In this document: positions 1,520 through 5,729 of the stretch, piece after piece
How positions within the stretch are numbered: the stretch's first letter is position 1
Layout: every line of letters starts with the position of its first letter
NCBI GenBank assembly: GCA_022566265.1
Contig: JADFJG010000013.1
Location: forward strand, 1-46,510
From: Pseudomonadota bacterium
GTDB taxonomy: Bacteria; Pseudomonadota; Alphaproteobacteria; SMXQ01
DNA: 46,510 nucleotides
Direction: 5' to 3'
The notes under the pieces: model-generated
What the model saw: only the letters and a program-made list of their open reading frames with translations
Told to the model about the DNA's origin: nothing
The model's database searches: none
Position numbers and translations under genes: made by a program

Positions 1520-3925
1520 TTAGCTCCGCAAGACACCGCCGGTCGCCTTGTTGACGGCGGCGATCACCGAGGCCGAGACCGCCTCGATCTCGGCCTCGGT
1601 CAGGGTCGCCTCGGTCGGTTCGAGGCGCACCGAGATGGCGATCGACTTCTTGCCGGCGCCCAGTTCCTCGCCGCCATACTGGTCGAACACCGAGACCCCG
1701 GCGATCAACTTCTTGTCGGCGGATTGGGCGGCGCGCACCACCGCCTCGGCGCCGACGTCGGTGTTAATGACGAAGGCGAAGTCGCGCTCGACCGCCTGGA
1801 AGGGCGAGGCGCCGAGCGCCGGGCGCGCCCTGCCGTCGCGCTGGCGCGGGGCGGGGAGCAGATCGAGGAACACCTCGAAGCCGCATATCGGGCCCTTGAC
1901 GTCGAGCGCGCGCAAGACCCGGGGGTGGATCTCGCCGAAATGCGCGAGGACCGTCTTCGGGCCGAGGCGCATGGCGCCCGAGCGGCCCGGATGGTACCAG
2001 GCGGGCGCGCCGGGGGTGACCCGAAGGCTCGCCGCCGGCGCGCCGGCGGCGCCAAGGGCGATCAGCGCATCGGCCTTGGCGTCGAACACATCGACGGCGC
2101 GGCCCGGCGCCAGCCAATGGCGGGGCCCGGAAGCGCCGGCGCGCACCCCGGCGGCGACCGCCCCCTGGCCGTCGGGCGTATCGTCGGCGAACGCCGGCCC
2201 GACCTCGAACAGCGCCAGATCGGGCGAGCCGCGATCGGCGTTGCGCTTGCAGGCGCAAATCAGGTTGGGAAGCAGCGAGGGGCGCATGTCGGTCAACTCG
2301 GCGCTGATCGGATTGGCGAGGGTCAGTCTCGGATCGCCGCCGCCGAAAAGCCTGGCCTGCGCTTCCGCCAGGAACGAATAGGTCACCGCCTCGACCATGC
2401 CGTTGGCGGCGAGGGCGCGGGCGGCCTGGCGGCGGCGGCGGGGAACCGGCGCCTCGACGGGTTTCGACAGCACGCCCTCCTTGGCGAACGGCGCCGCCGG
2501 GATGCGGTCATAGCCATAGACCCGCAACACCTCCTCGACCAGATCGGCTTCGCCTTCGATATCGGGACGCCAGGAGGGAACCCGGACCTCGATGGCGCCG
2601 TTCATCGCCGAAACGCCAAATCCAAGGGCTTCGAGTATGCGCCGGCTCTCGTCTTCCGCCACATCGACGCCGCCGAGCGCCATCACCCGCTTAAGGTCGA
2701 AGCGGATGGCGGAGGCGCCTTCGGGCACGGCGCCGGTGACGGTCACCCGGCTGGCCTCGCCGCCGCAAAGCTCGACGATCAGCCGCGTCGCCGCCTCGAT
2801 CCCGGGCAAGGTGCTGGCCGGATCGACGCCGCGCTCGAAGCGGTACCGCGCGTCGGATTCGATGTTGAGCTTGCGCCCGGTGGCGGCGGTGCGCACGGGG
2901 TCGAAAAACGCCGCCTCGACGAAGACGTTGACGCTTTCATCGGTGCAGCCCGTGCTCTCGCCGCCGATGACGCCGCCGAGGCTCAACACGCCGCCCTCAT
3001 CGCAGATCACCGTCATCGAAGGATCGAGCTCGTAGGTCTTGCCGTCGAGCGCCTGGAGGGTTTCGCCCTGGCGCGCCAGCCTGACCGTCAGATCGCCGGC
3101 GATCTTGTCGGCGTCGAACACGTGGAGCGGCCGGGCGCGGTCGAGCGTCAGGAAGTTGGTGATGTCGACGAGCGCCGAGATCGGCCTCAGCCCGACGGAA
3201 AGCAGCCTTTGTCGCAGCCAATCGGGGCTCGGACCGTTCTTCAGCCCCCGGATGGCGCGCCCGGCGAACAGCGCGCAGGCATCGGCCGCATCATTCGTGA
3301 AGTCGAAGGAGACGCCGGTCGGGTTTTCGAAACCGCCCTCGACCGCCTCGGGGCTAAGGGGAATGAGCTTGCCCACGCCCGCCGCCGCGAGATCCCGGGC
3401 GATGCCGTGAACGCCGAGACAATCGCCGCGGTTGGGCGTGATGGCGACGTCGATCAGCGGATCGTCGAGGCCGAGGACGGAAGCCGCGGGGGCGCCGATC
3501 GGCGCGTCGTCGGCAAGCTCGATGATGCCTTCGTGGTCCTCGCCGATGCCGATCTCCCGCGCCGAGCACAGCATCCCGGCGCTCTCGACGCCGCGGATGA
3601 CGCTCTTCTTGAGGTCGAGCCCGGTCCCCGGGATCCTGACGCCGGCGGCGGCGAAGACCCCCTTCATGCCGGTCCGCGCGTTGGCCGCGCCGCACACCAC
3701 CTGGACCCGCCCGCCGCCGGTATCGACGATGCAGACCGTCAGCCGGTCGGCGTCGGGATGCTTTTTGGCCTCGACGACATGGCCGACGACAAACGGCGCC
3801 AACGCCGCCGCCCGGTCGATCACCTCTTCCACCTCGAGCCCGAGATCGGTGAGCGCCCGGGCGATGTCATCGACGCCGGCCTCGGTTTCGAGATGGGTCT
3901 TCAGCCAGCCCAGCGTGAACTTCAC
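1520..3925 (-). CDS. pheT: Phenylalanine--tRNA ligase beta subunit; likely GTG start (VKFTLGWLKTHLET) at 3925, overlapping the pheS stop (GTGA)
   Basis: PheT motifs (tRNA-binding domain VVGHVVEAKKHPDADRLTVC, ITPNRGDCLGVHGIARDLAA, DARYRFERGVDP); follows pheS; the ORF track start at 4156 is over-extended into pheS. Confidence 0.96.
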   Translation of the reverse strand: MKFTLGWLKTHLETEAGVDDIARALTDLGLEVEEVIDRAAALAPFVVGHVVEAKKHPDADRLTVCIVDTGGGRVQVVCGAANARTGMKGVFAAAGVRIPGTGLDLKKSVIRGVESAGMLCSAREIGIGEDHEGIIELADDAPIGAPAASVLGLDDPLIDVAITPNRGDCLGVHGIARDLAAAGVGKLIPLSPEAVEGGFENPTGVSFDFTNDAADACALFAGRAIRGLKNGPSPDWLRQRLLSVGLRPISALVDITNFLTLDRARPLHVFDADKIAGDLTVRLARQGETLQALDGKTYELDPSMTVICDEGGVLSLGGVIGGESTGCTDESVNVFVEAAFFDPVRTAATGRKLNIESDARYRFERGVDPASTLPGIEAATRLIVELCGGEASRVTVTGAVPEGASAIRFDLKRVMALGGVDVAEDESRRILEALGFGVSAMNGAIEVRVPSWRPDIEGEADLVEEVLRVYGYDRIPAAPFAKEGVLSKPVEAPVPRRRRQAARALAANGMVEAVTYSFLAEAQARLFGGGDPRLTLANPISAELTDMRPSLLPNLICACKRNADRGSPDLALFEVGPAFADDTPDGQGAVAAGVRAGASGPRHWLAPGRAVDVFDAKADALIALGAAGAPAASLRVTPGAPAWYHPGRSGAMRLGPKTVLAHFGEIHPRVLRALDVKGPICGFEVFLDLLPAPRQRDGRARPALGASPFQAVERDFAFVINTDVGAEAVVRAAQSADKKLIAGVSVFDQYGGEELGAGKKSIAISVRLEPTEATLTEAEIEAVSASVIAAVNKATGGVLRS

Positions 3926-4998
3926 CGCGCCAGCCCTCCGGTCATGCTGGGGACGTCGCCCGGGGCGAAGCCGTAATGCGAAAGCCAGCGCAGATCGGAT
4001 TCGAAGAAGGTGCGGGTATCGGGGATGCCGTATTTCAGCATGGCGATGCGCTCGACGCCGAGGCCGAAGGCGAAGCCCTGGAATTTTTCGGGGTCGATGC
4101 CGCAATTGGCCAGCACCTTGGGATGGACCATGCCGCAGCCGAGGATCTCGAGCCAATCGCCGCCGCCGCCGATCTTGAGCCGGCCGCCGCCGCGCTTACA
4201 GCCGATATCGACCTCGGCCGAGGGTTCGGTGAAGGGGAAGAAGGACGGACGGAAGCGCACCGGGACGTCGTCGACCTCGAAATAGGCGCGGCAGAACTCG
4301 ATCAGACAGCCCTTGAGATGCCCCATATGGGTATGCCGGTCCACCACCAGCCCCTCGATCTGGTGGAACATGGGGGTGTGGGTGATGTCGGAATCGCACC
4401 GGTAGGTCCGGCCCAGCGCGACGATGCGGTGCGGCGGCGGCGTCTTTTGCATATGGCGGATCTGCACCGGCGATGTGTGGGTGCGCAAAAGCTTGCGGGC
4501 GCCGTCCGGCCCTTCCGGCAGATAGAAGGTGTCGTGCATCTGCCGCGCCGGGTGATCCTCGGGGATGTTGAGCGCCGTGAAGTTGTGGAAATCGTCCTCG
4601 ATATCGGGGCCCTCGGCCAGGGTGAAGCCCATCTCGCCGAAGATGGCGAGCAATTCGTCCATGGTCTGGCTGATCGGATGGATGCGGCCGTCGGCCTGGG
4701 GCCGCGCCGGCAGGGTGACGTCGACGCGCTCGCTCTCCAGCCGTTCCTCGAGCCCGGAATCCTCGAACGCCGCCTTCCTGGCATCGATGGCGTCGGCCAG
4801 GACCTGCTTGACGGCATTCAGCGCCACGCCCGCGTCCTTGCGTTCTTCGGGCGCCAGGGCGCCGACGCCCTTCATGCGCTCGGTGATAAGCCCCTTCCTG
4901 CCGAAGACGCTGAGGCGAACCTTCTCGAGACTCTCGAGACCCTCCGCCCCGGCGACGGCGGCCAGGAGCTGGTTACGCAATTGATCGAGGTTTTCCAT
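3922..4998 (-). CDS. pheS: Phenylalanine--tRNA ligase alpha subunit
   Basis: Class II aaRS motifs (HTSPVQIRHMQ, GRTYRCDSDITHTPMFHQIEGLVVD, FGLGVERIAMLKYGIPD). Confidence 0.97.
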   Translation of the reverse strand: MENLDQLRNQLLAAVAGAEGLESLEKVRLSVFGRKGLITERMKGVGALAPEERKDAGVALNAVKQVLADAIDARKAAFEDSGLEERLESERVDVTLPARPQADGRIHPISQTMDELLAIFGEMGFTLAEGPDIEDDFHNFTALNIPEDHPARQMHDTFYLPEGPDGARKLLRTHTSPVQIRHMQKTPPPHRIVALGRTYRCDSDITHTPMFHQIEGLVVDRHTHMGHLKGCLIEFCRAYFEVDDVPVRFRPSFFPFTEPSAEVDIGCKRGGGRLKIGGGGDWLEILGCGMVHPKVLANCGIDPEKFQGFAFGLGVERIAMLKYGIPDTRTFFESDLRWLSHYGFAPGDVPSMTGGLAR

Positions 4999-5001
4999 TA
5001 C

Positions 5002-5272
5002 CTAGAGCGGGTCTTGGTAGATAGGAACCATTTGACCGGGATTATTTTGCGTCCTGGCTAGGCGCGGAATGCGTAGTGATGCTAGCGCATCACAAGCGTT
5101 TCGCAACGACGCCAGGGCGCAAAAGAACCCGGCCTTCGGTGGGGCAAATCGGCCCCTCGGCGTCGTTGCGACGCTAGCCCGATGCTCAAGCATCGCGCGG
5201 CGCGCCGCGCCTAGCCGAAGGAGCCGATTTGCACCCATCAAATTGATTCCTATCTACCAAGAACCGCTCTAG
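5002..5272. mobile_element. MITE-like or structured repeat element with about 34-bp imperfect terminal inverted repeats
   Basis: Left end CTAGAGCGGGTCTTGGTAGATAGGAACCATTTGA; reverse complement of right end CTAGAGCGGTTCTTGGTAGATAGGAATCAATTTGA; further inverted matches inside (GGCTAGGCGCGG/CCGCGCCTAGCC, GCAACGACGCC/GGCGTCGTTGC). Confidence 0.8.
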
Positions 5273-5363: not shown

Positions 5364-5729
5364 TCAGGCGGCCTTGGCAAGCGCCGTGCGTACCTGCTCC
5401 ACCAGGCCCGAAAAAGCGTCCGGATCCCTGATGGCGATGTCGGATAGAACCTTGCGGTCGATCTCGATGCCTGCCCTCTTGATGCCGTTCATGAACTCGG
5501 AGTAGGTCAGCCCGTGAGCGCGGACGGCGGCATTGATGCGCTGGATCCAAAGCCCCCGGAACGTGCGCTTGCGGACGCGGCGGTCGCGATAGGCGTATTG
5601 CAGCCCCTTTTCGACCTTCTGCAGCGCCGTGCGGAAGGTATTCTTCGACCGGCCGCGATAGCCGGCCGCCATACGGAGAACCTTTTTATGGCGAGACCGC
5701 GAGGTCACGCCCCGTTTGACACGAGCCAT
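5364..5729 (-). CDS. rplT: 50S ribosomal protein L20
   Basis: [27 protein letters not shown]...; 121 aa. Confidence 0.98.

Follow-up and report, generated by a model that had tools for sequence, protein, structure and literature searches.

In the contig stretch analysed here, referred to as the window (46,510 nucleotides at its full length), the gap between rplT and pheS of an uncultured alphaproteobacterium contains a highly palindromic non-coding element of 271 bases, which was recognised on inspection of the sequence and runs from CTAG to CTAG at positions 5002-5272 on the minus strand. The locus raises the question of whether this element is a switch that belongs to pheS or an insertion that arrived from elsewhere. 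Our analysis revealed about 40 further copies at other places in the genome, which argues for a parasitic transposable element and against a switch dedicated to pheS. The element is a genuine mobile insertion that this genome carries and a genome of the same genus lacks, and it represents a miniature inverted-repeat transposable element (MITE) of unusual architecture. The best explanation, which we consider highly probable, is that of a non-autonomous MITE mobilised in trans by a transposase of the IS630/Tc1-mariner type.

Structure of the element

The sequence-only reading had placed a 271-bp inverted-repeat element with its end 3 nt before the start of pheS, and these coordinates are right. 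The element is oriented relative to pheS in what is called here the sense direction and covers 5003-5271 if both target TA dinucleotides are counted. The terminal inverted repeat (TIR) facing pheS (5002-5027, CTAGAGCGGGTCTTGGTAGATAGGAA on the plus strand) and that facing rplT (5247-5272, CTAGAGCGGTTCTTGGTAGATAGGAA on the minus strand) differ by one mismatch and together give a repeat of 26 bp, CTAGAGCGG[T/G]TCTTGGTAGATAGGAA, which continues imperfectly inward. The inverted repeat claimed earlier is therefore real, while its proposed length of about 34 bp had counted the imperfect extension. One type of element end reads CTAGAGCGGTT.

Between the ends, the 270-bp body forms an inverted dimer of two hairpin arms, the left half matching the reverse complement of the right half at 75% over 122 columns. 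Arm 1 lies at 5145-5231 on the minus strand (alignment columns 41-129), is defined by the consensus structure of 39 copies and their compensatory changes, and carries the apical hairpin GATGC-TCAA-GCATC at 5181-5194 on the plus strand. Arm 2, an inverted copy related to arm 1, lies at 5034-5134 on the minus strand (columns 142-247) with the apical hairpin GTGATGC-TAGC-GCATCAC at 5076-5093. The coordinates of both arms were converted from alignment columns. Both apical hairpins are located as had been claimed; the loop given earlier as TTGA is the minus-strand reading of TCAA.

Folded as RNA, the element region reaches -179.1 kcal/mol as opposed to -113.3 kcal/mol (sd 5.1) for dinucleotide shuffles (z = -13), which puts the palindrome far above chance. 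A scan of the element against Rfam returned sub-threshold matches only, none above the gathering score, and no terminator-like site or promoter within the element stood out from shuffles. A transposase gene is absent. The composition is GC-rich, as in the host, so that the element does not show the AT-richness which is often quoted for MITEs and which is not a defining requirement (PMC2229807). Open frames run through both strands (5002-5241, minus, 79 codons; 5069-5272, plus, 67 codons), each ending in a terminal TAG, and are probably a by-product of the GC-rich palindrome.

Copies in the genome and in related genomes

The draft genome of the organism (3.55 Mb, 173 contigs) holds about 40 dispersed copies, with 86-97% identity over most or all of their length or, in a second subfamily with other ends, about 80-83% identity; the mosaic copies L009 and L015 combine subfamilies. 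Copies are also abundant in a genome of the same genus (G001), as well as in G003 and G007, which belong to another genus within the family, and two distant matches were obtained in a genome of another family (G017), while the other family members searched gave no element copies. When a pattern of the conserved body was compared with the GTDB contigs, at least 93 stretches matched. Among the matches listed, nearly all were in metagenome-assembled genomes labelled Rhodospirillaceae, Rhodospirillales, Alphaproteobacteria or Proteobacteria, and two were in short, oddly labelled contigs (L130, L164). The same pattern found no match in the viral contigs searched, and the search of the open-access literature returned no description of this element family. 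The sequence-only reading had named a single-copy sequence conserved at this position in distant relatives, or the lack of TIR-bounded copies elsewhere, as findings that would speak against it. Neither applies, as this genome holds many copies and relatives hold others, TIR-bounded copies lie at other places, and the rplT-pheS site is empty in the same genus.

A 33-bp form, TAGAGCGGTTC-TTGGTAGATAG-GAACCGCTCTA, is dispersed as well, seven times in G001 and once in the genome G000 (separate places L195, L197, L198, L200, L201 and L203 in G001; L204 in G000), and has the appearance of a derivative that lost its interior by deletion at a GAACC microhomology and was then dispersed again. Solitary TIR matches were considered as candidates for an autonomous element and rejected, as they proved to be fragments or such 33-bp deletion forms. 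In two contigs of relatives (L092, L114), a copy near the contig end has at least 20 nt of perfectly palindromic flank on both sides; insertion into hairpins was set aside here, the better reading of these flanks being that the assembly folded back at the contig end, probably at the long palindrome.

Target sites and empty sites

TA is present at both ends in 43 of the 55 complete copies and only once at the empty sites. In the window, the two TA dinucleotides at 5003-5004 and 5270-5271 accordingly represent the two copies of an inferred 2-bp target duplication. All 43 copies with TA on both sides lie in the context Y-TA-R, with C or T before and G or A after, the commonest flanks being C before TA and G after. 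The remaining 12 copies are without TA at one or both ends, perhaps by decay. According to published work, elements of the IS630 family duplicate TA and prefer CTAG (PMC2170065 and the work it cites), with which the Y-TA-R target of the copies agrees.

Empty sites, for which the sequence-only reading had suggested looking, were found in G001 at both rplT-pheS and secD (a gene named from its context). The rplT-pheS gap of the own genome reads GCCGCCGGGC-TA[element]TA-GGTAATGG, and the gap in G001, which is without the element, reads GCCGCCGGGATAGGTGATGG. With the element removed, the rplT and pheS flanks match G001 across the joint at 90% identity. This empty site is imperfect, as its spacer is 17 bp shorter and A stands instead of C before the TA. 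The second site is exact in length: where the own genome holds another copy, reading CTC TAG(element)...CTA AGG, the end of secD in G001 is ATC TAA with an intact stop codon, and the flanks, once joined, can be aligned along 262 nt (93%).

Candidate mobiliser

Transposons with a DDE_3 domain (PF13358) were sought in five genomes. An IS630 transposon of 1056 bp with the TIR CTAGAGCGGTTTCAAT and two overlapping reading frames was obtained from G007, and one of 1058 bp with the TIR CTAGAGCAAACACCG from G017, both with CTAGAGC termini; G001 contains a truncated relative of the G007 transposon (94% identity over 646 nt), cut by the contig end. The element has 11 terminal nucleotides in common with the G007 transposon and with its truncated relative in G001; the remainder of the TIR differs, and nothing further is shared with the G007 transposon beyond chance. 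The search of the own genome (94.7% complete) yielded neither an autonomous partner nor an IS630 helix-turn-helix match. Its only IS630-type transposons are two others (L048:328-1412 and L052:78-1338), whose termini, TATAGATCATTGC.. and CTAGTGGTCTG.., are unrelated to those of the element. Judged from these sequences, the link to IS630 appears good by target and end motif and incomplete by the length of the TIR. In the proposed mechanism, an IS630-group transposase would have recognised the ends of the element and transposed it by a cut-and-paste route.

The claim of a mobile element is thus supported by the dispersal of about 40 copies, CTAG-type inverted repeats, Y-TA-R sites with flanking TA, two empty sites in the same genus, and IS630 transposons of related genomes that share its terminal motif. 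As a separate observation, G038, G122, G127 and some other genomes of the alphaproteobacteria contain short palindromes (44-65 bp) that are dispersed and end in CTAGAGC, up to 37 per genome; the control used in this class-wide search was itself a palindrome, and these counts carry no enrichment estimate.

Covariation and evolution of the arms

The two-armed body is conserved between genera and the terminal repeats turn over. They vary between copies (e.g. CTAGAGCGGTTCTTGG, CTAGAGCACTATCCGG, CTAGAGCATTTCCGG), mostly in the outer stem, and despite this turnover the two ends of any one copy remain complementary. Covariation, which had been proposed as a check, was evaluated in an alignment of 39 copies (A1) and is extreme. 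The two-armed structure is paired in 97.2% of the cells, 48 of 87 pairs have changed on both sides in a compensatory manner, and compensatory cells number 422 as opposed to 131 in shuffles. Kinship among the copies inflates such shuffle tests; sliding the structure along the alignment, which preserves kinship, collapses the signal.

An initial tally, with 227 G-U and 32 A-C cells, had the look of strong RNA selection. This reading was rejected, because the antisense fold gives the same kind of excess, and most of the imbalance arises from picking the structure on a single strand. If the pairs are taken from folds of both strands, G-U cells are as rare as A-C cells (30 vs 29); the two structures combined have 122 and 80, or 29 and 25 if counted by pairs. 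The covariation pattern is thus close to symmetric between the strands, which speaks for a process in DNA that corrects one arm by the other, and such DNA-level correction fits better than selection on the RNA. Template switching is a published mechanism for such arm correction (PMC8794818). The complementary arms of each copy would accordingly be held matched mainly at the DNA level, by template switching or gene conversion, which would explain that copies vary widely in arm sequence and not in shape. In 48 of the 55 copies, the sense strand has a lower folding energy than the antisense strand (mean difference 6.7 kcal/mol).

Gene context and orientation

Genes next to the copies were called with a home-made codon model trained on this window, and no complete copy was found within a called gene. 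After sides with similar flanks had been merged, 174 sides with a gene within 700 nt were available. At 33 of the 92 gene 3' ends, the element's own TAG serves as the stop codon, as is expected if TAR stop codons are targets that the element end restores. The insertions that survive are intergenic, and many lie precisely within a TAA or TAG stop codon made good by the TAG of the element.

At 56 gene 5' ends it is the right end of the element that points to the gene, and at 26 the left end (p = 0.0012; post hoc, uncorrected), and within 30 nt of the start codon the ratio is 15 to 2, also post hoc. Gene 3' ends show no orientation bias (47 vs 45). The comparison of 5' with 3' sides gives a Fisher p of 0.014; two subsets by source, which overlap in part, give 0.019 and 0.031 (post hoc, uncorrected). 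The copy at pheS belongs to the 5' copies in the favoured orientation. With outer TIRs that resemble each other, only the inner body or its transcript can account for the preference.

Alternative explanations

An attenuator or regulatory leader specific to pheST that evolved at the site would suit the location, since the element immediately precedes pheS and the operon of relatives has a T-run hairpin after rplT. With some 40 copies at unrelated places, an empty site in the same genus and no terminator-like site within the element, it is refuted as the origin, and we give it next to no credence. It is also very unlikely that a repeat was misjoined between rplT and pheS during assembly of the draft genome. 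Many contigs do end inside copies, and the palindromic flanks on L092 and L114 have the look of fold-back assembly, but the window copy is intact inside a 46.5-kb contig, with TA on both sides and non-palindromic flanks that match G001 across the joint. A transposase outside the IS630 family, or a REP-type palindrome moved by a RAYT, could account for the missing autonomous partner with a full TIR and for the other short CTAGAGC-ended palindromes of the class. The TA flanks, the Y-TA-R target and the CTAGAGC-ended IS630 transposons in three related genomes render a different mobiliser quite improbable, and REPs measure 20-40 bp as opposed to 270 bp with a TIR for the element.

The body may instead be a selected RNA, i.e. 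a mobile module with a regulatory or protective role that is maintained on account of its folded transcript and acts in the sense direction in 5' untranslated regions. The very strong covariation, the conservation of the body between genera while the ends turn over, the favoured orientation upstream of genes, especially close to the start, and the lower fold of the sense strand all agree with this. RNA selection should, however, favour G-U on the transcribed strand, whereas G-U equals A-C on unbiased pairs; gene 3' ends are without orientation bias, and no Rfam family was matched. On balance we regard it as improbable. Somewhat less so, though still unlikely, is a version in which the conserved entity is the two-armed body, whose terminal repeats have been exchanged on repeated occasions (a TAGTACTTAC type stands apart from several CTAGAGC types) and which is retained in the sense direction near start codons for a useful transcript or DNA shape.

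Consequences at the pheS locus

The conserved operon order thrS-infC-rpmI-rplT-pheS-pheT, already recognised by the sequence-only reading, is matched by Pfam. The gene pheS (3922-4998, minus strand; PF01409, PF02912) starts with an ATG at 4998-4996, and the stop codon of its upstream neighbour rplT (5364-5729, minus strand; PF00453) is 91 nt away from the element. On the minus strand, the junction reads CTAGAGCGGTTCTTGGTAGATAGGAA ... TTCCTATCTACCAAGACCCGCTCTAG GTA ATG(pheS). Because just GTA is native between element and ATG, the ribosome-binding region of pheS is essentially element-derived, much as had been suggested, and the in-frame TAG of the element excludes an upstream pheS start in that frame. 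The native rplT-pheS junction of G001, inspected by eye, has no strong Shine-Dalgarno sequence.

In several relatives (L031, L034, L035 and L038), a GC-rich hairpin followed by a T-run, resembling an intrinsic terminator or attenuator, lies downstream of rplT and before pheS. By eye, a hairpin with a T-run after rplT is present in G003, G006, G010 and G011 and not clearly so in G000 and G001. Separation of rplT from pheS may therefore be usual in this group.

The sequence-only reading had proposed that a long stem-loop could uncouple pheST expression from that of rplT, stabilise it or attenuate it. An influence of the MITE on pheS or pheST expression is plausible as a putative regulation, and the orientation bias upstream of start codons lends indirect support to an effect on transcripts. 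If transcription from rplT continues, a stem of about -179 kcal/mol would form at the initiation site of pheS, and ribosomes would have to initiate right next to the foot of this highly stable structure. As the most likely consequence, which we put forward tentatively by analogy with the Correia/NEMIS elements, for which RNase III cleavage has been reported (PMC10969869), RNase III may cut the double-stranded stem, detach pheST from the upstream mRNA and leave a short 5' end at pheS. Such cleavage would solve the problem of initiation beside the stem and at the same time separate pheST from rplT.

Relation to known repeat families

By analogy, the element is an IS630-linked, TA-targeting MITE that would work like RUP, Correia/NEMIS and ERIC. 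RUP (repeat unit of pneumococcus), for which IS630-Spn1 was proposed as the mover (PMC2229807, PMC3049150), is likewise a small non-coding intergenic palindrome with TIRs, a TA target, a mobiliser of the IS630 type inferred from similar ends, and enrichment away from gene starts. In contrast, RUP measures 107 bp, occurs in one species and has TIRs close to those of its IS, whereas the element described here is 270 bp long, GC-rich and two-armed, with diverse TIRs that share only the outer 7-11 nt with the IS; the comparison is by description between unrelated hosts and no membership is claimed. The Correia/NEMIS elements of Neisseria are MITEs with TIRs of about 25 bp, TA termini and a conserved core, dispersed beside genes (PMC2229807, PMC10969869), whose two TIRs form a stem in the transcript, as is predicted for the element. 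RNase III cleavage and promoter creation have been shown there, whereas for the element the former is inferred and a promoter was not found, and the likeness noted here is one of build.

The ERIC and YPAL repeats of enterobacteria are intergenic palindromes with TA at their termini and an orientation-dependent effect on mRNA (PMC2229807); ERIC, however, is a single stem-loop of 127 bp as opposed to two arms, and the hosts are unrelated. Alphaproteobacterial intergenic repeats with an RNA model of two long hairpin arms are known as CIR in Caulobacter and Brucella (PMC2229807), but their ends do not pair with each other and they carry GANTC motifs, whereas the ends of the element form a long TIR stem. 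With the IS630 family and Tc1-mariner, the element shares the TA target within a CTAG-like sequence and the CTAGAGC termini seen in the IS630 copies of relatives, and it differs from them in having no transposase.

A second dispersed family of about 269 bp has other ends (TAGTACTTACTTTCATAGAAGGGTGAYACAT) and the same two-armed build (L217:3720-3988, L225:1290-1558, L226:2194-2461, L235:2497-2764 and L112:2899-3199). Its inner hairpins are related to those of the element at about 73-80% over 50-60 nt, and some of its copies are nested inside the element, such as L235:2497-2764, which sits in one element copy. At L213:2037-2083, a short palindrome consists of the two ends of this second family (TAGTACTTACTTTCATAG..CTATGAAAGTAAGTACT) and parallels the 33-bp form of the first.

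Implications

A mobile palindrome with textbook compensatory changes that is free of the strand-specific wobble signature of RNA selection is a warning for structured-RNA calls resting on covariation, and the family offers a natural system in which DNA-level template switching can be weighed against constraint on the RNA (compare PMC8794818). A body kept across genera while the ends change is the opposite of what is expected for MITEs recognised by their ends. Should the two-armed body be the entity that is retained, its transcript or DNA shape may be useful, for example in setting the 5' ends of mRNAs. By means of its terminal TAG, the element restores a stop codon at its landing site. For the host, an essential synthetase gene now begins beside a giant hairpin, and the effect of the element on translation is therefore directly testable at pheS.
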